DNA from: a virus
Direction: 5' to 3' (one strand)
DNA length: 35,686 nt
Virus record (IMG/VR): IMGVR_UViG_3300036782_000028
Location: 1 to 35,686 of that record
The notes beneath the pieces are model-generated. The model had not been told where the DNA came from. It worked only from the letters and a program-made list of their open reading frames with translations, and searched no databases. Position numbers and translations under genes: made by a program. Shown piece by piece: positions 20,248-34,453 of the stretch (positions are counted from its first letter, which is position 1; the number at the start of each line of letters is the position of its first letter).

Positions 20248-22017
20248 ATGAGTGCTATTACTATCAGTGCCGATTTGGATCCCCGTCGTCAAGCGATGTA
20301 TCTCTATTGGCAGGGGCTGCGAGTGACCCGCATCGCCGAGATGATCGGGGAGAAGTCCGTCACGGTACACAGTTGGAAACGCCGCGACAAGTGGGACGAT
20401 TACGGCCCGCTCGATCAGATGCAAATCACGACCGCCGCCCGCTACTGTCAGTTAATCCTAAAGCCGGAGAAAGAAGGGCGCGACCTTAAAGAGATTGACC
20501 TGTTGGCCCGCCAGGCAGAGCGGCACGCCCGCATAGGGAAATACAACGACGGCGGGAATGAGACGGTTCTTAACCCCAATATTGCCGCCCGTAACGCCGG
20601 CCCGCGCAAACGTACGCAGAAAAATGCCTTTACGGATGAGCAACACGCCCGACTGAAAGAAATCTTTCTTGAACAGATGTTTGAATATCAACGCAGTTGG
20701 TACCGGGCCGGGCTGTCGAAAGAGTTCCGTATCCGCAACATTCTGAAAAGTCGCCAGATCGGCGCAACCTACTATTTTGCCCGTGAAGCCCTGATCGATG
20801 CCCTGGACACGGGCCGTAATCAGATGTTTGTTTCTGCGTCGAAAGCACAGGCGCACCAGTTCAAAAACTACATCATGGCTTTTGCGCAGGAGGTTGATGT
20901 TGAGCTGCGCGGGGAAACGATCATCCTGCCGAACGCGGCGGAAATGCACTTCCTGGGCACCAATTCCAACACCGCCCAGGGGCGACCGGGCAACCTGTAT
21001 CTGGATGAGTATTTCTGGATCCCCGGCTTTAAGAAGCTGCGCCGGGCCGCATCGGGCATGGCATCGCAAACGCGCTACCGTTCCACCTACTTTTCCACCC
21101 CATCCAGCATGACTCATGAAGCCTATTCATTCTGGAATGGCACGCTGTTTAACAAGGGTAAATCGAAGGACAGACGCCGGGAAATTGACGTTAGCTATAA
21201 ACGTCTGGCCAGCGGCCTGCTCTGTGAAGATAAACAGTTTCGCCAGATCGTCACCATTGAGGATGCGTTACGCGGGGGCTGTGACCTGTTTGACCTCGAT
21301 GAGCTGCGCGAGGAAAACAGTGATGAAGATTTTGAAAACCTGTTCATGTGCAACTTCATTGATGATACCGCGTCGGTGTTCCCCATGGGGGAAATGCAGC
21401 GCTGCATGGTCGACAGTTGGGAACATTGGACGGACGTTAAACCCTTCGCATTGCGCCCGGTGGCGGCGCGGGAAGTCTGGATCGGTTATGACCCGGCCAG
21501 TTCTGAAAACGGCGACAGCGCCGGCTGTGCGGTTATCCTGCCGCCGTTGATTGCCGGCGGTAAGTTCCGGGTGCTGGAGCGCCATCAGTGGCGCGGCATG
21601 GATTTTTCCGCCCAGGCCAAAAATATTAAAGCGCTGACCGAGCGCTACAACGTGACCTATATCGGCATCGATAACACCGGCCTTGGCCGCGCGGTGTCGC
21701 AACTGGTGCGCCAATTCTTCCCGGCGGTTAACGCCATCAACTACAGCCTGGAAATGAAAACCGATCTGGTACTGAAAGCCCGCGACGTGATCCGCTCCGG
21801 CCGTCTGGAGTTCGACGCCGGCGCGCTGGATATCGCCCAGGCGTTTATGTCCATCCGCAAACAGATGACCGCAACGGGCCGCCGGGCAACCTACGTCACC
21901 AGTCGCGCCGAAGGTGTCAGCCACGGCGATGTGGCTTGGGCGGTCATGCACGCCTTATTCAATGAACCGCTCGAAGGGGCAACCGGTAGCAATACAGGTT
22001 TTATGGAGATTTATTAA
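20248..22017 (+). CDS. P: Terminase ATPase subunit gpP
   Basis: This 589-residue protein (P2 gpP 590) is the packaging motor. The N-terminus has a helix-turn-helix (YWQGLRVTRIAEMIGEKSVTVHSWKRRDKW, residues 20-49). A Walker A-like SRQIGATY lies at 168-175 and Walker B NLYLDEYF at 249-256. The nuclease-like C-terminal domain carries Asp415 (WIGYDP) and Asp475 (YIGIDN). It starts behind a weak CAGG and leads directly into Q, which begins at the next base after the stop. Confidence 0.97.
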   Translation: MSAITISADLDPRRQAMYLYWQGLRVTRIAEMIGEKSVTVHSWKRRDKWDDYGPLDQMQITTAARYCQLILKPEKEGRDLKEIDLLARQAERHARIGKYNDGGNETVLNPNIAARNAGPRKRTQKNAFTDEQHARLKEIFLEQMFEYQRSWYRAGLSKEFRIRNILKSRQIGATYYFAREALIDALDTGRNQMFVSASKAQAHQFKNYIMAFAQEVDVELRGETIILPNAAEMHFLGTNSNTAQGRPGNLYLDEYFWIPGFKKLRRAASGMASQTRYRSTYFSTPSSMTHEAYSFWNGTLFNKGKSKDRRREIDVSYKRLASGLLCEDKQFRQIVTIEDALRGGCDLFDLDELREENSDEDFENLFMCNFIDDTASVFPMGEMQRCMVDSWEHWTDVKPFALRPVAAREVWIGYDPASSENGDSAGCAVILPPLIAGGKFRVLERHQWRGMDFSAQAKNIKALTERYNVTYIGIDNTGLGRAVSQLVRQFFPAVNAINYSLEMKTDLVLKARDVIRSGRLEFDAGALDIAQAFMSIRKQMTATGRRATYVTSRAEGVSHGDVAWAVMHALFNEPLEGATGSNTGFMEIY

Positions 22018-23055
22018 ATGAGCAAACGCAACCGGGGCCACAAAAACACCCAACCGATCACGCAGAAACAAAGCGGGGCGCAGCATGTGGAGGCGTTCAC
22101 TTTCGGCGACCCGATCCCGATGCTGGATCGGCGTGAAATCCTGGATTATCTGGAATGCAGCATTGTTGACCGTTGGTACGAGCCGCCGATCTCATTCAGC
22201 GGCCTGGCGAAAACGTTCCGCGCGGCGGTGCATCACAGTTCGCCGATCACCATGAAGCGAAATATCTTAGTGAGTATGTTTAAGCCGCACCGGCTGTTGT
22301 CAAAGCAGGATTTTAGCCGTTATGCGCAGGATTTTATGGTGTTCGGCAACAGCTTTATTGAGGGGCGCTTTAACCGGCTGGGTGGTCTGATGAAGCTGGC
22401 CCCCAGCCTGGCGAAATACACCCGCCGTGGCGTAGAAACTGATTCTTACTGGTTCGTGCAATCGTGGATGGAGCCGCATCAGTTTGCGGAGGGTTCTATT
22501 TTCCACCTGTTGGACCCTGATATTAACCAGGAGATTTACGGCGTTCCTGAATACCTTTCCTCGCTTAACTCCATCTGGTTGAACGAGGCGGCGACGCTGT
22601 TTCGCCGGAAATACTACCTTAACGGCAGTCATGCCGGATTTATCCTGTACATGAACGATGCAGCGCACAAGCAGGAGGATATCGACAACCTGCGCAAAGC
22701 GCTGAAAGAGTCAAAAGGGCCGGGTAACTTTCGCAATCTGTTTATGTATGCGCCTGGCGGTAAACCGGACGGGTTACAACTGATCCCGCTGGCCGAAGTC
22801 GCGGCAAAAGATGAGTTTTTGAACATCAAAAACGTGACGCGTGATGATCAGCTTGCTGCCCAGCGTACGCCACCGCAACTTATGGGGATTTTACCGAACA
22901 ATACCGGCGGTTTTGGGGATGTTGAGAAGGCTGCGCGGGTGTTTGCGATTAACGAGCTGGCTCCGCTGCAAGAGCGGCTGTGTGAGCTAAACGAGTGGGC
23001 AGGGGAAGAGGTGATCAGCTTCAAACCCTATGAATTGCTGAAACCTGGTGCATGA
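22018..23055 (+). CDS. Q: Portal protein gpQ
   Basis: This 345-residue protein (P2 gpQ 344) forms the dodecameric portal through which DNA enters the head. Conserved parts are AFTFGDPIPMLDRREILDYLECSIVDRWYEPPISFSGLAKTFRA, the central IYGVPEYLSSLNSIWLNEAATLFRRKYYLNGSHAGFILYMNDAA, and the end IKNVTRDDQLAAQRTPPQLMGILPNNTGGFGDVEKAARVFA. It shares a transcript with P and is followed by a terminator. Confidence 0.97.
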   Translation: MSKRNRGHKNTQPITQKQSGAQHVEAFTFGDPIPMLDRREILDYLECSIVDRWYEPPISFSGLAKTFRAAVHHSSPITMKRNILVSMFKPHRLLSKQDFSRYAQDFMVFGNSFIEGRFNRLGGLMKLAPSLAKYTRRGVETDSYWFVQSWMEPHQFAEGSIFHLLDPDINQEIYGVPEYLSSLNSIWLNEAATLFRRKYYLNGSHAGFILYMNDAAHKQEDIDNLRKALKESKGPGNFRNLFMYAPGGKPDGLQLIPLAEVAAKDEFLNIKNVTRDDQLAAQRTPPQLMGILPNNTGGFGDVEKAARVFAINELAPLQERLCELNEWAGEEVISFKPYELLKPGA

Positions 23056-23490: not shown

Positions 23491-23609
23491 GGATTAGGGG
23501 ATCGATAGGGATCGTTTCGCTTGTCTCGCACCTCACAATATCGCCCCTGTTGCATTGCCAGAGTTCTGCGAGGCGATCAGATTCATAGTGCGAATTGATG
23601 TCGTAAATA

Positions 23610-23644
23610 AAAAGCGCCTCACTACGTGGCGTAGAGGCGCTTTT
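23610..23644. terminator. Bidirectional terminator
   Basis: AAAAGCGCCT (23610-23619) pairs with AGGCGCTTTT (23635-23644). An inner stem CTACG/CGTAG (23622-23626, 23630-23634) caps it, with a two-base bulge. T-tracts on both strands mean it can stop the SOS-gene transcript from the right and any read-through from the left. Confidence 0.85.
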
Positions 23645-23768: not shown

Positions 23769-24011
23769 TTAGGTCAGTGTGATACCGTGGGCAAACTTCA
23801 TGTAAATGTGTTGTCCATATTCTCCTTCGTCCTTTATCCTCCAGGCCGCTTGATACATTCGAATATAGTTAACCGCCTGATTTGGCGACCAATCATGCCC
23901 TAACTCTCGAAGTTCTCGCAGAAAATCTACAACCGCGACAGTTTGCGCACCTTTCGGCGTTCTTTTGATCGCTTTGATAAAAGCATGCTGTACATCAGCC
24001 CTGCGTGGCAT
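23769..24011 (-). CDS. Small SOS-regulated protein of unknown function
   Basis: I do not recognise this 80-residue protein. It is basic at the N-terminus (MPRRADVQHAFIKAIKRTPKG) and continues with VVDFLRELRELGHDWSPNQAVNYIRMYQ, a helical segment, then ends IYMKFAHGITLT. No enzyme motif, membrane segment or cysteine is present. What makes it stand out is its promoter: a LexA box overlaps it eight bases before the ATG. In phage 186 the last gene before cos, tum, is LexA-controlled and encodes an antirepressor; this gene sits in the same position. An antirepressor role is an inference from place and regulation only. A terminator lies downstream at 23610-23644. Confidence 0.75.
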   Translation of the reverse strand: MPRRADVQHAFIKAIKRTPKGAQTVAVVDFLRELRELGHDWSPNQAVNYIRMYQAAWRIKDEGEYGQHIYMKFAHGITLT

Positions 24012-24018
24012 AGTGTCA

Positions 24019-24077
24019 CCTCAATAATTACTGTATATAATCACAGTAATTATTGAGGGCATAGCATTGGATGTCAA
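24019..24077 (-). promoter_or_regulatory. LexA-box promoter of the 80-aa gene
   Basis: TACTGTATATAATCACAGTA (24030-24049) fits the enterobacterial SOS box (CTGT-N8-ACAG with an AT-rich centre). It is nested in a larger perfect inverted repeat with 16-bp arms, 24019-24034 and 24043-24058. On the minus strand TTGACA (24077-24072) and AATAAT (24054-24049) form a promoter with a 17-bp spacer, and the box covers its start point. Bound LexA would therefore block transcription until DNA damage. Confidence 0.88.
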
Positions 24078-24132: not shown

Positions 24133-24477
24133 TTATAACGTCGACAGCATCAGCTTTTTATAGCCTGACGTTTGCCAGCAAGTAGCATCCCCCTGCATAC
24201 AGCAGCCACCCGGATCACCTGGTAGCGTGTCGCCACACTTCCCGCAACTGCTTTTGCGCAGCTCTACCAACTGTTTATGCAGTAATTTATTGTCTTGGCG
24301 GATGAGGCCGAGCAAGTATTCCGTTACCTCATAAGGCTCCCTGGCTATTCTGCGCTGTTCACAGCCCTCTAAAATCATGGCCATTTCTTGGCTATCAACG
24401 CGCAAAGTGATCGTCGTAATGCCTTGCTCTTTATCGCGCTGGCGCTGGATGCGTTTACGTTCTGCTGATGTGGTCAT
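24133..24477 (-). CDS. Unknown protein with C-terminal cysteine cluster
   Basis: This 114-residue protein follows gene A directly. The N-terminal third is basic (SAERKRIQRQRDKEQG), followed by ITTITLRVDSQEMAMILEGCEQRR, which resembles the strand-helix start of ribbon-helix-helix proteins. The C-terminal part has cysteines at 78, 81, 92, 93 and 100 (CGKCGDTLPGDPGGCC), which could bind zinc. It is in the position of P2 orf91, but I cannot claim homology. It is probably a small DNA-binding early protein. Confidence 0.7.
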   Translation of the reverse strand: MTTSAERKRIQRQRDKEQGITTITLRVDSQEMAMILEGCEQRRIAREPYEVTEYLLGLIRQDNKLLHKQLVELRKSSCGKCGDTLPGDPGGCCMQGDATCWQTSGYKKLMLSTL

Positions 24478-24478
24478 G

Positions 24479-27001
24479 CTATTCCTCCGATTTCTGTTTT
24501 ATTGCTTCTTTTCTCAGGTGTTCGCCAACAAGGCGTGTTTGTTCTGGTATCTGCTGATGCCATAGCGCGGTGATCCGGGTCAGTGCGGTGGTTGTTGCCG
24601 GCATGGTTTGCCGATAGAGACAACCGTCGGCCCGTGCCCGGTAGCGCTGCCCGTCGATAGTGACCGTTGCACCCCTGGCTACCGATTTCAAAATGCAGGC
24701 ATCCAGACTGAAACCGATGGACTCGGCGAAGTTGCCGATCTGGCGTTCCAGCTTGCTGAGTGGTCGCTTGATTGTGTTAATGCCAGCACTGGCCGTGGAT
24801 GGCCGGTGATTTTCACCCTCCTGGCCATCATCCAAACTGAAATAAGCCAGGGCACGTTGCTCTTGTTCGTGGCGCACCTGTTCCCGCCACCGCTTATTGC
24901 TGGCCGGATCTGGCAGTACCGACCTTATTGGTGGCAGATTTAGCCCCTCGTCTGGCAATGCGAAGCCCTCGGCGACAGCCATAAATGGATTTTTTATAGG
25001 TTCAGGCGGTGCGCTGCGAATTCTCCGGAGCATCAACCGCCGTTCCTTGTCGGTTAGTCGCTCAAAATCGAGGTTTTCAGGCGGTGGGGGTGACTCCTTA
25101 ACCTGTTTGGTTTTTAACCTTTCAGTCGACACCGTACAGTTATTGACAGAACTCCGAGAGGGCGCAGGCGCGCCCTTAAGGTCAACAGCCAGGTCAACGG
25201 CACGGGCCGGAACAAACTTCCATTCCTTCGTGCGGGTGATGATCGGCGTGTCGATACCGACCGGCGGGGAAAAGACTCCCCGAATTCGGATCACATCTTC
25301 GCCATAGTCGTTGGTGGTTTCTGCCGGCTCATAATAGGTGCGGACAATCAGATCATCACGGCGGACGAACGGGCCGCCCTGGGCGTTGACGTATTCAGCC
25401 CAGCGGCCATAGTCGGCAGCATCATGCACGGCGGCAAAGTCGACGCTAAGGCCAACGGCAGTTTCATGATCTGACATCTTGCGCAATTCACGGAAAACCG
25501 TCACCGGTGCGCCGCCAATAAACTGAAACTGACGAATGCGCCAGCGGGCTGCCCAAGCGGATACCGCTGGGGCGACCTCTTTCAACTCTTTTCCGCTGTC
25601 GTCGTCCAGTTCGCCATCAAGCGCGTATCCGTCGATGTTCTTTGATATGTATTTAGCGATGTAACCGGTGGCACTGCCTTTTTCTGGATCAATGGCCTCG
25701 GCGTGAAAACGGGCTTTTCTTGACCGCTCGCTATACAGTTCGTCGGTATCTTCCGCGATGGCATAGGCGCGCAGGATGTCGCGCACCTTGCTGACTTCTT
25801 CCGGGCGCATAAATAACAGCATGTGCCAATGCGGTGTGCCATCGCCATGCGGCTCGGCTACCCGGATCCCGAAAATGCGGATTTTTTTGCGATGCAGTTT
25901 GGCGCGAGCGCGCTCCCATACATTGCGCAGATATCGCTGAGTTTCGTCCGGGCTGGCCCCACACCATTTGCGATTGCGGTGGCCATGTCTATTGGTGGCA
26001 TGGAAACGGGAAGGGGCCGTGATGGTGTAAAACTCACCAACGAACCCCATTTCATTACAAATATCCTCAAAACCACGAATGCGGTTCATCAATTCGCAAC
26101 GACGAATGGCCGGATTTGCGACGCTGTGATCGTACTTGTCGATCAGAGAAAAGCGGTTGCCTTCTTCGTCTTCCAGCTCCATCGATTTTAAAAACTCACG
26201 GGTGCGGCGCTTCTGCTCCCGCCAGTCGCTGACGGTTGGCCGACTGGCGTAGGGGGTGGCTTTTTTGCTGACGTGACCAATGGCAATATGCAAGTGCTCT
26301 TTCCAGCGGTCGGCATGACGTCGCAAACGGCGCAGCCACCAACCCTCTGACATCATGCGCATGACTGCCGGTGCAGTATTTTCAACGGTCATGTTCCAGG
26401 GGGCTACCTGATAGGTTTCCCACAGTGGCGGCGTTTGCTTAAACCGGCGGGTGAGTGCGGCGGCCCCTTTATATAGCGCCATGACGTTCAATAATTCAGA
26501 AGGCCGGCCAATCTCTTCATCGACTACGCTCAATTCTTGCTTGATGACATCGGCGATATCTTTCGCCAGCAGTTCAATATCAGATCGCCCTGCGTCCGGT
26601 AGACGATTAAATCGGTGGCATAGGGCGGCATCGCTATTGTTATCGGAAACGCGGTATTTCTCACTGACGAGATCAAGCCGTGGCAATACACGCTCAACAA
26701 AGTTTTTGGTTAAGTATGTATTGCCCCGGCGGATGCCCTGGGATTCTTCCAGCTTATTGATGTGGTAACGCACATCGCGTTGGATAAGCTGCGGCTGTTG
26801 TTCTAACAGATGATGAGCGCGCAGGGTAGCGGCGATCTGTTCTTCGCTCTGGCTATCTATTTCGGATGGGCGGTTGAGCGATGGGTCGATCTCCGGGCGT
26901 GGCGCATTCCAAGAGTATGCCCATTCAAAAGCAGGTGCGCCGCTGCCAGGATATGGCGGCGGCGGGGTTGGTGCGTGGCGTCCGCTAGGCTTTGTTGTCA
27001 C
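24479..27001 (-). CDS. A: Rolling-circle replication initiator gpA
   Basis: This 840-residue protein is the P2 gpA homologue (761), the endonuclease that nicks the origin in cis to start rolling-circle replication. The HUH motif is HWH at 391-393 (GDGTPHWHMLLFM). The active tyrosines are Tyr447 and Tyr451 in GYIAKYISKNIDG, matching the P2 pair 450 and 454. The N-terminal 60 residues are proline-rich and extra relative to P2, and the C-terminal 230 residues are variable. The candidate nick site lies within its own coding sequence at 25143-25163. Its start overlaps the stop of the preceding gene by four bases. Confidence 0.96.
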   Translation of the reverse strand: MTTKPSGRHAPTPPPPYPGSGAPAFEWAYSWNAPRPEIDPSLNRPSEIDSQSEEQIAATLRAHHLLEQQPQLIQRDVRYHINKLEESQGIRRGNTYLTKNFVERVLPRLDLVSEKYRVSDNNSDAALCHRFNRLPDAGRSDIELLAKDIADVIKQELSVVDEEIGRPSELLNVMALYKGAAALTRRFKQTPPLWETYQVAPWNMTVENTAPAVMRMMSEGWWLRRLRRHADRWKEHLHIAIGHVSKKATPYASRPTVSDWREQKRRTREFLKSMELEDEEGNRFSLIDKYDHSVANPAIRRCELMNRIRGFEDICNEMGFVGEFYTITAPSRFHATNRHGHRNRKWCGASPDETQRYLRNVWERARAKLHRKKIRIFGIRVAEPHGDGTPHWHMLLFMRPEEVSKVRDILRAYAIAEDTDELYSERSRKARFHAEAIDPEKGSATGYIAKYISKNIDGYALDGELDDDSGKELKEVAPAVSAWAARWRIRQFQFIGGAPVTVFRELRKMSDHETAVGLSVDFAAVHDAADYGRWAEYVNAQGGPFVRRDDLIVRTYYEPAETTNDYGEDVIRIRGVFSPPVGIDTPIITRTKEWKFVPARAVDLAVDLKGAPAPSRSSVNNCTVSTERLKTKQVKESPPPPENLDFERLTDKERRLMLRRIRSAPPEPIKNPFMAVAEGFALPDEGLNLPPIRSVLPDPASNKRWREQVRHEQEQRALAYFSLDDGQEGENHRPSTASAGINTIKRPLSKLERQIGNFAESIGFSLDACILKSVARGATVTIDGQRYRARADGCLYRQTMPATTTALTRITALWHQQIPEQTRLVGEHLRKEAIKQKSEE
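25143..25163 (-). other. Candidate replication origin (nick site) inside A
   Basis: Reading the minus strand, CCCTCTCGGAGTTCTGTCAA resembles the P2 origin as I recall it (CGCCTCGGAGTCCTGTCAA), and it lies in the 3' third of A as in P2. A GC-rich palindromic stretch, GGGCGCAGGCGCGCCC (25160-25175), is adjacent. The nick position itself is not visible. Confidence 0.65.
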
Positions 27002-27866: not shown

Positions 27867-28258
27867 TACTCATCCCCCTCTACGGTGAAGCCCTGTTTTT
27901 TCAGCAGTGCGGCTTGTTCAATACGGTTGGCATTCCAGCCCTTTACATGGCCGGTGTCATAATCATCTTCCCCCGCCCATAGTGTCCGCTCATCGGTCAA
28001 CCGCACCGGCGTAGCCAGCCGCTTTTCTGCCCTGTCGATGCGTTCTCCTGCCATTTGCAGTGCCTGAACTGATTTATCGAGCAACGCCTGAAGGCGTTCG
28101 GCCCGCGCTTGTGATGCTTCCATGTCGGCAAGTAGGGTGGTGAGCAGCTTCTTCTCTGTCCATGCAAGATATTGCTGAACAGGCTCTAAATCGGCGGCGC
28201 CACAATCGACCAGCTCCTCTACGATTTCCCGCGCCAGTTTGTTCAGTTTCTTATTCAC
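27866..28258 (-). CDS. Coiled-coil Ead/Ea22-like phage protein
   Basis: This 130-residue protein has a heptad-rich middle (DMEASQARAERLQALLDKSVQALQMAGERIDRAEKRL) and ends VKGWNANRIEQAALLKKQGFTVEGDE, the ending of many Ea22-like phage early proteins. I chose GTG 28258, which overlaps the methyltransferase stop (GTGA) and has GGAG eight bases upstream. An ATG at 28333 would extend it deep into the methyltransferase gene. Function unknown. Confidence 0.75.
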   Translation of the reverse strand: MNKKLNKLAREIVEELVDCGAADLEPVQQYLAWTEKKLLTTLLADMEASQARAERLQALLDKSVQALQMAGERIDRAEKRLATPVRLTDERTLWAGEDDYDTGHVKGWNANRIEQAALLKKQGFTVEGDE

Positions 28259-29172
28259 GCTTGAGTCTCCAGAGCGGTGATAATTTCGTACATAGCTTTT
28301 GGCGGTACGGCGTTGCCAGCCATGTGAACGCAAAGCCTGTGCGATGGCGGTTTGATGTAGTCGTCAGGGAATGACATCGCGAGCATGTTTTCGTCTTTGT
28401 TCAACATGCGCATGCGATAACCGTCGACTATCGCCCACCGATCGCGGGTAGTGATTGTGCCGATGGGGCGGGAAAGAGAACGTCCGGTTTTGGTGTTGCC
28501 GTAATAGCTGAAAAGGAACCTTTCGCCGAACTCTGCGCGCCCATTCTTAACCCGCTCAAGTGTTGCAGCAGCACGGCCCGGCTTTTCGACGGGTTGCCAG
28601 GTGTTGGCGTCGAAGTCGATAATGGTGCTGGCTGGCACATGTGGCATTTTGGGGAGTTTCAGAAACAGCGGTTTTTTGCTGCGAGTGGCGATGATGAACA
28701 GCCGCACGCGGTTTTGAGGAACGCCGAGATCAGCACAATCAACGATGTGCGGAGCGAGAGAATACCCCAACGCCTGCATTGCCGCTTCCCATGCGGGGTA
28801 AAGCTCCCATCGAAGGAACTCCGGCACGTTCTCGACGATGATTTTCGGCATTTTGTGGTATTCCGCAGCGGAAACCACCGCCCATGCAGTGGATCGGCTG
28901 GCGTCATGCTGTGCATTTCCCGCTTTCTTTCCGCGCGCCTTGCTATGGCCTTGGCAGCATGGTGAGGCCATCATCAGATCATGCTTAGGCATTAGCGACC
29001 AATCTGCCTGGTGTAAGTCCTGGCAAACGTGGATAGCGCCGGGGTGATTCTTTTCATGGGCTTCGACAGCGGCTGGCCAATGATTGCCAGCCCAAACCAC
29101 GTCTGCACCCGCCATTTTTGCACCAGTGGATGAACCGCCCAAACCGGCAAAGAGGTCGCTCACTTTCAGCAT
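28255..29172 (-). CDS. Orphan C5-cytosine DNA methyltransferase
   Basis: This 305-residue enzyme has motif I (DLFAGLGGSS, 6-15), motif IV ASPCCQGHS with the probable catalytic Cys73, motif VI ENVPEFL (114-120), motif VIII QNRVRLFIIA (153-162) and motif X GNAVPP near the end. The canonical PPCQ is here PCCQ. The target-recognition region is short. No restriction endonuclease gene is adjacent, so it probably protects phage DNA against host restriction. It overlaps the genes on either side by four and seven bases. Confidence 0.93.
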   Translation of the reverse strand: MLKVSDLFAGLGGSSTGAKMAGADVVWAGNHWPAAVEAHEKNHPGAIHVCQDLHQADWSLMPKHDLMMASPCCQGHSKARGKKAGNAQHDASRSTAWAVVSAAEYHKMPKIIVENVPEFLRWELYPAWEAAMQALGYSLAPHIVDCADLGVPQNRVRLFIIATRSKKPLFLKLPKMPHVPASTIIDFDANTWQPVEKPGRAAATLERVKNGRAEFGERFLFSYYGNTKTGRSLSRPIGTITTRDRWAIVDGYRMRMLNKDENMLAMSFPDDYIKPPSHRLCVHMAGNAVPPKAMYEIITALETQA

Positions 29173-29435: not shown

Positions 29436-29752
29436 GCGATTACACCCATGATGAATTTGCCGTGCAGTTGGTTCAGGCAGCGCATAGTGCGAAAACGTGG
29501 GCGATATTGCAGACGTTTGGGGACGCATTGACCATTCACTTCATACAAATGGCCGTAGCTGTACCAGCGATTGCTAACCCATACGTCGTAGCCCTGTCCA
29601 TGCAGGGAAAAAGTTACGCAATGTCGACTTGCTGAAATCACCTTCCCTTCATCCATAAGCTTGATCAGCTGTGCGTCCCAATCAGCGTTAAATGGCTCTT
29701 GGTACATGGAAAACAGGGTGTTACCGATATGCCTCAAATAATCATTAAACAT
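29432..29752 (-). CDS. Hypothetical early protein (106 aa)
   Basis: I do not recognise this protein. It begins MFNDYLRHIGNTLFSMYQEPFNADWDAQLIKLMDEGKVIS and has many aromatic residues (YDVWVSNRWYSYGHLYEVNG) and a basic segment (PKRLQYRPRFRTMR). ATG 29752 overlaps the end of dam and has GGGGCGG upstream. No catalytic motif is visible. It lies between dam and the DUF3850 gene in an unbroken run of overlapping genes. Confidence 0.7.
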   Translation of the reverse strand: MFNDYLRHIGNTLFSMYQEPFNADWDAQLIKLMDEGKVISASRHCVTFSLHGQGYDVWVSNRWYSYGHLYEVNGQCVPKRLQYRPRFRTMRCLNQLHGKFIMGVIA

Positions 29753-30566
29753 TTGCCGCCCCCATAGTTGCGATGATCTCACCGGCGCGCGTGCGGCCAG
29801 CGGCATTGGCGCTGACTGATCGGCGGGCGGTGGTGGTGGTGATATTGAAATCGGAGTAAAGCGCCAGCGCGGCGGCTGTTTCGCTATTTGATGCCACAAC
29901 GTGGCGACCACGACGGGCGGCGATACGCAGCATACGGGCCAGCTTTCGCTGTTGCTCGCTGGTAAAACCGTCGGTGTGGTAACTTGTGAAATTGGCGGAT
30001 TTGGATGCAGGGATGTACGGCGGATCGCAGTAAATCACATCGCCAGCCTGCGCCATCCGGATCGATTCCTGGAATGTGCAGCACAGGAAAATAGCCTTTT
30101 TGGCCTGTGCTTTCTCAGCAAATGAATGGATCTCGTCTTCGGGAAAATATGGTGCTTTTCGATGACCGAACGGCACATTGAAATCGCCGCTGAGGTTATA
30201 GCGGCAAACGCCGTTATAACCGTGACGATTCAAGTAAAGGAACTGCGCCGCGCGATACAGAAAGTTGCTGTCACAACGCAGGTTAAAATCAGCACGGACT
30301 GCGTAATAACCAACTTCGTCGGCCTGTTGTTTAAACAGATTGCGAGCCTCCCTAATCAGTGCGGCAGGCTGGTTTTTAGCGACGTTATGGAAGTTGATCA
30401 GATCGCTGTTGATGTCACACAGCAGATAGCTGTCGTAATCGGTATTGAGGAATACCGCACCGGAGCCGACGAACGGCTCAACCAGGCGCTTACCCTCCGG
30501 CAGATGCTGCCGCAGTGTGTCGATGATGCTGGCTTTGCTGCCGAGCCATTTCAGCGCGGGCCTCAT
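29745..30566 (-). CDS. dam: DNA adenine methyltransferase (Dam-like)
   Basis: This 273-residue enzyme transfers methyl groups to adenine N6. Family motifs are KWLGSK at 6-11, the SAM-binding PFVGSGAVF (31-39) with CDINSDLINFH, the conserved LNRHGYNGVCRYN, and the catalytic DPPY at 181-184. These are the features of the GATC-specific Dam family. It overlaps the exonuclease gene by four bases. A phage Dam can mark its own DNA against host restriction or alter the timing of methylation-sensitive promoters. Confidence 0.95.
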   Translation of the reverse strand: MRPALKWLGSKASIIDTLRQHLPEGKRLVEPFVGSGAVFLNTDYDSYLLCDINSDLINFHNVAKNQPAALIREARNLFKQQADEVGYYAVRADFNLRCDSNFLYRAAQFLYLNRHGYNGVCRYNLSGDFNVPFGHRKAPYFPEDEIHSFAEKAQAKKAIFLCCTFQESIRMAQAGDVIYCDPPYIPASKSANFTSYHTDGFTSEQQRKLARMLRIAARRGRHVVASNSETAAALALYSDFNITTTTARRSVSANAAGRTRAGEIIATMGAANV

Positions 30567-33422: not shown

Positions 33423-33614
33423 TTACTCAGCCTGAAAAGATTCAATACCGCGCAGGTACAAAAGGCGCGCCATGCTTGAAACAGAACGGCTTTGTGTGGC
33501 CGCTATTGCCTCCAATTCCGATATTTCTTGGTTTGACAAGCTCATCGGAATTCTTTTTTTTCCAGCGACTCCGCGCGGTAATCGCGAGCGCTGATCATGA
33601 TTGGCTTGTTTCAT
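33423..33614 (-). CDS. Ribbon-helix-helix-like early protein
   Basis: This 63-residue protein has a basic N-terminus (MKQANHDQRSRLPRGVAGKKRI) followed by RIPMSLSNQEISELEAIAATQSRSVSSMARLLYLRGIESF. The strand, helix and helix order with that spacing is the Arc/MetJ-type fold. An in-frame ATG at 33545 falls within the expected strand, so ATG 33614 is preferred although it lacks a visible ribosome-binding site. It is the first gene of the early operon, ahead of Cox. It may bind the lysis-lysogeny switch. Confidence 0.7.
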   Translation of the reverse strand: MKQANHDQRSRLPRGVAGKKRIPMSLSNQEISELEAIAATQSRSVSSMARLLYLRGIESFQAE

Positions 33615-33674: not shown

Positions 33675-34043
33675 ATGTCAATCGGAAATGAGGAATTATT
33701 GTTCCTGATAGGCTCCCGCTTGCGCGAAGAAAGGGAAAAATCAGGTCACAGCCAAGAATCCATGGCTTCAAATTTTGGGATATCAACCCGCACTTGGGGT
33801 AAGTATGAGCGTGGGGAAACTATGCCCGATGCTGCGACACTTGCGATGTTAAATAGCCATTACGGTGTAGACGTTGCTTATGTGCTAACTGGCGTAAAAA
33901 CTCCGCAATCAAGCATTTCTGTAGAGGAGCAACGATTAGTGGATAATTACCGAGCAATGGACGACTCGGCACGGTTAAATATACAGGCGGTTGGCGATTC
34001 GTTCGCGCATTCAAAACCAATTAAAAAGGTAGGTGAGAAATGA
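33675..34043 (+). CDS. C: Phage repressor C (XRE family)
   Basis: This 122-residue protein has an N-terminal helix-turn-helix, LIGSRLREEREKSGHSQESMASNFGISTRTWGKYERGETMPDAATLAML (residues about 11-59), and a short C-terminal part for dimerisation (SVEEQRLVDNYRAMDDSARLNIQAVGDSF). It lacks a LexA-type self-cleavage domain, so induction by DNA damage needs another protein, as for 186 with Tum. It is divergent from the early operon, where P2 C lies. AAGGA is 12 bases before the ATG, long for a start, and fits better with a small overlapping frame at 33667. Confidence 0.9.
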   Translation: MSIGNEELLFLIGSRLREEREKSGHSQESMASNFGISTRTWGKYERGETMPDAATLAMLNSHYGVDVAYVLTGVKTPQSSISVEEQRLVDNYRAMDDSARLNIQAVGDSFAHSKPIKKVGEK

Positions 34044-34453
34044 AAGGATTTAATACTCAATTATCGTATTTTTTAAAAAGCATATTTATATTATTTTTCG
34101 CAATTCTGGCTTTAAGCACAAATAGTGCCTTTGCCAAGGATTGGTATCAAGGCGGAACGCTCCACGAAGCCAATGCGCTCACATGGCAAAAGGCTACTCA
34201 GCAAAACAAGCTTGCCACCTGCGCTGATTTCATTGCTGGGTTGTATAGCAAGGATTTATTGGCACCGGAAATAAGCGAAAAAATGAAATCAGTTGAGGAT
34301 TTCAAACCTTATGCTTCTGAATTAGTAAAACAACTTGATGCAGCTTTTGCACCAGAATCAGACCCGGCTCAGAATAAGAAAATGTTTACTAACCAAACTG
34401 TCAAATCAACAGCAATGATGCTCATGATCATGATGAAGTGGGTACAAAATTAA
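34040..34453 (+). CDS. Exported protein in the lysogeny operon
   Basis: This 137-residue protein has a clear signal peptide: MKGFNTQLSYFLKS, then a hydrophobic core FILFFAILAL and a cleavage site after Ala32 (AFA-KD). The mature part begins KDWYQGGTLHEANALTWQKATQQNKLATCADFIAGLY, is helical and has one cysteine. No lipobox or catalytic motif is seen. The start overlaps the repressor stop and the stop overlaps the integrase start, so it is transcribed in the lysogen. It is AT-rich compared with its neighbours. Similar exported proteins occur next to integrase genes of other elements, with no assigned role as far as I recall. A periplasmic exclusion or fitness role is conceivable. Confidence 0.8.
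   Translation: MKGFNTQLSYFLKSIFILFFAILALSTNSAFAKDWYQGGTLHEANALTWQKATQQNKLATCADFIAGLYSKDLLAPEISEKMKSVEDFKPYASELVKQLDAAFAPESDPAQNKKMFTNQTVKSTAMMLMIMMKWVQN

Follow-up and report, generated by a model that had tools for sequence, protein, structure and literature searches.

A divergent, stand-alone member of the predicted SOS-controlled phage family PHROG 3893 at the place of tum in a P2/186-like phage

On the basis of its sequence and of its upstream site, an 80-amino-acid gene (orf80) that a P2/186-like phage carries at the tum position is a new, divergent and stand-alone member of the SOS-controlled phage family PHROG 3893, a family for which our literature search found no name, no function and no paper that mentions it. 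The phage is represented by what we call the window, that is, the whole stretch of DNA analysed here (35,686 nucleotides; positions 1 to 35,686 of IMG/VR record IMGVR_UViG_3300036782_000028). We consider it probable that orf80 is best explained as an SOS effector of a phage DNA-damage module, with no part in the removal of the phage repressor.

The gene content of the window is that of a P2/186-like phage, with a replication gene A, a portal gene, an integrase and an immunity region that includes an Arc-like regulator (Table 1). Located on the strand of gene A, between that gene and the cos/portal side, orf80 occupies the position of tum in phage 186, as a first-pass annotation made from the sequence had recognized; the same annotation was right that the repressor carries no self-cleavage domain. 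Profile comparison across the window open reading frames (ORFs) found no homologue of TumA, GftA, DinI or UmuD′/HumD, and no other strong LexA box emerged from a matrix scan of the window; besides orf80, no SOS-controlled candidate was found in this phage.

Table 1. Coordinates of the features of the window that bear on orf80
Feature	Position	Strand	Remarks
Terminator-like hairpin (intrinsic type) with T-rich tail, after orf80	23606..23644	(-)	From sequence and folding
orf80, 80-amino-acid protein, divergent PHROG 3893 member	23769..24011	(-)	PHROG 3893 E=2.6e-14; L064 homologue; lambdoid relatives
Perfect palindrome enclosing the LexA box	24019..24058	.	Arms 24019-24034 and 24043-24058 (16 bp), 8-bp gap
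LexA box TACTGTATATAATCACAGTA	24029..24048	.	17/20 consensus positions matched
Sigma-70-like promoter TTGACA-17-AATAAT	24049..24077	(-)	11/12; TTGACA 24077-24072, AATAAT 24054-24049
Portal gene	22018..23055	(+)	Other side of the cos region
Replication gene A (Phage_GPA)	24479..27001	(-)	Fixes the P2/186 layout
Arc-like early regulator (PHROG 3431)	33423..33614	(-)	Divergent from the repressor at 33675
Short HTH repressor, RstR/phage-Xre type, 122 amino acids	33675..34043	(+)	HTH only, without S24 domain

The LexA box is the single site in the window with three or fewer mismatches to the 20-bp LexA consensus (0.00 in 100 shuffles), and it reaches 22 bits with a matrix derived from related loci, compared with a best of 14 bits across 20 random sequences matched in base composition. 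Its CTGT-N8-ACAG core, read from the window sequence, lies at 24031-24046. By itself, this core has two copies in the window (0.27 expected); the other one, at 21222, is within the terminase gene, matches 13 of the 20 positions and is regarded as chance. The palindrome around the box has longer arms than the site of any relative (next longest 9 bp, commonest 6 bp, among 122 distinct site entries), and there may be a second operator within 24019-24058, perhaps one for the orf80 product itself. The box abuts the promoter immediately downstream of the −10 element, so that a LexA-type operator, as defines the LexA regulon, overlaps the orf80 promoter. Core, inverted repeat and overlap with the promoter had all been described in the first-pass annotation, and each was recovered here. 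LexA would be expected to bind at 24029-24048 and orf80 to be induced in the SOS response; with the family-wide conservation of the box described below, the sequence supports SOS control of orf80 well enough for us to regard it as almost certain.

That orf80 is a real gene is indicated by a good ribosome site (GAGGTG) before its ATG and by homologues elsewhere; the ATG lies 17 nt from the end of the LexA box. Given the terminator-like hairpin behind the gene (at about 23644-23606; −19.2 kcal/mol for the 70 nt folded around it), the transcription unit looks monocistronic. Three minus-strand ORFs further on (23695-23456, 23555-23352 and 23383-23141) were considered as additional SOS genes and rejected, as they either extend into the terminator or are located past it, and gave no profile match. 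Searches of the orf80 protein against Pfam and NCBIfam, DinI-like domains included, returned no match, in agreement with the earlier remark that it carries no recognizable motif. By contrast, residues 1-59 aligned with the PHROG 3893 profile (79 positions), and a profile of 59 relatives, orf80 among them, matched orf80 alone in the window (E=3e-30).

Relatives of orf80 were found by tblastn in lambdoid phages of enterobacteria, mostly annotated as hypothetical or as ‘DNA polymerase V’ and located near int. Those of HK225, mEp390, phiES15 and Erwinia phage vB_EhrS_59 are homologous to orf80 over most of their length (28-40% identity), are similar to it in size and, like it, have a LexA box close upstream; they differ in location, as the lambdoid genes adjoin int, usually just before a UmuD′-like gene, whereas orf80 stands alone between A and cos. 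The family is present at no fewer than 502 IMG/VR loci (viral contigs; a lower bound), at 48 loci of a bacterial species collection, every one of them in an Enterobacterales genus, and in 1,001 plasmid records. Counting sites with at least 15 of 20 matches within 85 nt upstream of the gene, a LexA box precedes 120 of 123 non-redundant PHROG 3893 loci and only 1 of 1212 control ORFs, and this near-universal occurrence independently supports the box of orf80 and bears out the SOS control proposed in the first-pass annotation. The start of a UmuD′-like (HumD) ORF lies directly downstream in 82 of 111 loci, a trait of most relatives that does not define the family; neither orf80 nor its homologue in the P2-like phage L064 is followed by such a gene.

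Among the plasmid copies, one on IncY retains both the LexA box and the UmuD′ gene. The single IncX3 record read (L184 6001-6599; CP028705, with blaNDM-5) also has a PHROG 3893 gene and a UmuD′-like gene, with the LexA box gone, ISKox3 on the promoter side and IS26 against the 3′ side of the UmuD′ gene. IncX3 copies were considered as proof that the gene needs no phage repressor; being probably hitchhiking relics, they carry little weight.

The closest relative of orf80 is the homologue in L064 (42% identity), which has a LexA box of its own. About 580 bp past this box, a second LexA box precedes a homologue of TumA (PHROG 1993, like TumA of PSP3); the two adjoining LexA-boxed units span 9942-10740 of L064. 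The repressor of L064 is a CI of the 186 type, and no match to the 33675 repressor of the window was found in that phage. As a side observation, the CI-type HTH domain is matched by two stretches of the L064 CI-like protein. Conversely, the repressor of Escherichia phage 520873, also P2-like, is 46% identical to that of the window over 68% of its length, and no LexA box, orf80 or TumA/GftA was found in 520873. In the family tree, orf80 (P0001) and its L064 homologue form a clade with support of 100/99 apart from the mostly UmuD′-paired members, although both branches are long and the alignment columns few; a search with this P2-like branch alone matched L064 only. The two proteins diverge from the family in their C-terminal third, and the role of the P2-like members may differ from that of the family. 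The conservation of this distinctive C terminus in two divergent P2-like phages suggests selection.

AlphaFold models predict a winged-helix-like fold for orf80 (H-E-E-H-H-E-E; mean pLDDT 75, and 83 for the relative L016). Winged-helix proteins, including the DNA-binding domains of Fur, BlaI/MecI and PadR, were among many weak Foldseek matches, none of which was significant in the PDB (lowest E about 0.04-0.05; TM about 0.5), and a sequence search of solved structures gave nothing useful. Although the N-terminal third of orf80 is basic, the median net charge of PHROG 3893 proteins is +1, which together with the weakness of the structural matches makes DNA binding doubtful and contacts with proteins as likely as contacts with DNA.

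On the explanation that we favour, orf80 would be a single-gene SOS unit and a stand-alone effector of the phage DNA-damage module. In the lysogen, LexA bound to the box over the −10/start region would keep orf80 off; after DNA damage, cleavage of LexA would release a short transcript that ends at the terminator and yields the 80-amino-acid, predicted winged-helix-like protein. Given the habit of the family of forming operons with UmuD′-like (HumD) genes, PHROG 3893 may be an accessory to the DNA-damage module that phages of enterobacteria carry, and orf80 would most likely act on the processing of damaged DNA or on the SOS/Pol V machinery of the host rather than by removing the phage repressor. 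As the window phage has no UmuD′ of its own, orf80 would use that of the host. A role beside UmuD′/Pol V, drawn from operon habit, is the most likely one and at the same time the weakest step of the proposal. Its extension to the whole family is tentative and, to us, somewhat doubtful: PHROG 3893 proteins might be winged-helix-like SOS effectors that are made with UmuD′-like proteins and modulate damage tolerance or Pol V, with a UmuD′-independent P2-like branch.

The first-pass annotation had instead suggested a new type of antirepressor, which would bind the non-cleavable 122-residue repressor after LexA cleavage and induce the prophage, as do Tum and GfoA/GftA. Its observations do not lead to this conclusion, because PHROG 3893 genes coexist with S24-type repressors, with GftA-type genes and with TumA. 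An S24-domain CI is present in six of seven annotated carrier phages, and an open frame of at least 216 amino acids with a match to S24 was found in 38 of 50 IMG/VR carrier records (picked by length, not independent and possibly incomplete); with such a repressor of the self-cleaving type, an antirepressor would be unneeded. Of the carriers that lack S24, the majority show a second LexA box at another place, and in the seven such stretches that were read (L169-L174 and L176) this box precedes a GTG-start gene of 64-82 amino acids, itself followed by a conserved gene of about 200 amino acids. The small genes of four tested representatives belong to PHROG 4847 or 340; PHROG 4847 also includes the proven antirepressor GftA (Gifsy-2; PMC3121763), which is 66% identical to the small gene of L172, gftA being taken as L179:11464-11685 from its published description (between dinI and irsA, GUG start; PMC3121763). 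The GTG-start small genes of these stretches are probably antirepressors of the GftA kind.

Small LexA-controlled antirepressors are an established kind (Gifsy GfoA/GftA, 186 Tum and N15 AntC; PMC3121763), and the tum position, the LexA box and the lack of S24 in the repressor would all suit one here, as would the negative searches of the window, which leave nothing else under SOS control to inactivate the short repressor. However, the gene does not travel with a repressor type, as it accompanies a 186-type CI in L064 and is missing from 520873 with its window-type repressor, and profile comparison showed no similarity of orf80 to TumA or GftA. As judged from these comparisons, the PHROG 3893 gene follows neither repressor type nor induction need; the family is probably not one of antirepressors in general, and the family-wide comparison leaves that function unlikely for orf80 as well. 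P2 itself is not SOS-inducible, and a missing antirepressor in the window phage would therefore not be strange. Nor did phiES15 provide a second case of a short repressor accompanied by no SOS gene other than a PHROG 3893 member, as an unannotated PHROG 340 ORF is present in it. This GfoA/GftA-like ORF (L151 10173-10475) lies past the replication genes, a position of the Gifsy type, and has no LexA box; phiES15 is recorded as UV-induced and has a 134-amino-acid repressor without S24.

The predicted fold, with its weak Fur, BlaI/MecI and PadR matches, raises the alternative of an SOS-timed transcription regulator, under which orf80 would bind to DNA (perhaps to the palindrome before its own gene) and tune genes of the phage or the host. 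The basic N-terminal third and the 16-bp palindrome arms, unique to the orf80 site, would fit such a protein, yet the insignificance of the structural matches, the modest charge of the family and a usual UmuD′-like neighbour that indicates repair over regulation make this quite improbable. It is also conceivable that orf80 is a passenger SOS gene from a lambdoid phage, without a role in induction, and that the prophage, like P2, is not SOS-inducible. PHROG 3893 is mobile among lambdoid phages, P2-like phages and plasmids, and 520873 combines the same repressor type with the lack of a LexA box; but gene, box and promoter are intact in the window, and the distinctive C terminus has been kept in both P2-like phages, and we regard a mere passenger as very unlikely.

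Tum of 186 is a LexA-controlled antirepressor, one half of which is DinI-like. With Tum and TumA of PSP3, orf80 shares its genome position, a LexA box over the promoter and small size; it has no DinI-like partner, and there was no BLASTP match between them (profile comparison probability 0.4%). For the DinI family, in keeping with the negative Pfam and NCBIfam searches, the corresponding probability was 0.3%. GfoA and GftA of the Gifsy phages resemble orf80 as small LexA-controlled proteins of phages whose repressor lacks S24 (PMC3121763), but form another family (PHROG 4847/340) to which orf80 has no match (profile comparison probability 7%) and whose GftA-type genes occur alongside PHROG 3893 genes in the same phages. 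HumD/UmuD′-like proteins (PHROG 3469), the SOS-operon partners of most relatives, are unrelated to orf80 in sequence. Together, BLASTP, Pfam, NCBIfam and profile comparison rule out homology of orf80 to Tum, TumA, GftA, DinI and UmuD′. The comparison also yields two inexpensive questions to ask before a small LexA-boxed phage gene is named an antirepressor: does the family need a non-cleavable repressor, and is a dedicated antirepressor encoded elsewhere? The function of PHROG 3893, once known, would add an SOS effector that is spread by both phages and plasmids.

Other genes of the window may be mentioned in passing. Between gene A and orf80, 24133-24477 encodes a 114-amino-acid protein of PHROG 536 (transcription regulator); it matches NF008671, the model for a ‘LexA regulated protein’, only weakly (E=3e-4, short of the cut-off of that model). 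Two DNA methyltransferase-like genes (28255-29172 and 29745-30566) lie in the early region, and a probable cargo gene between the repressor and the integrase (34040-34453; 137 amino acids, PHROG 23065) encodes a protein with a signal-peptide-like N terminus.
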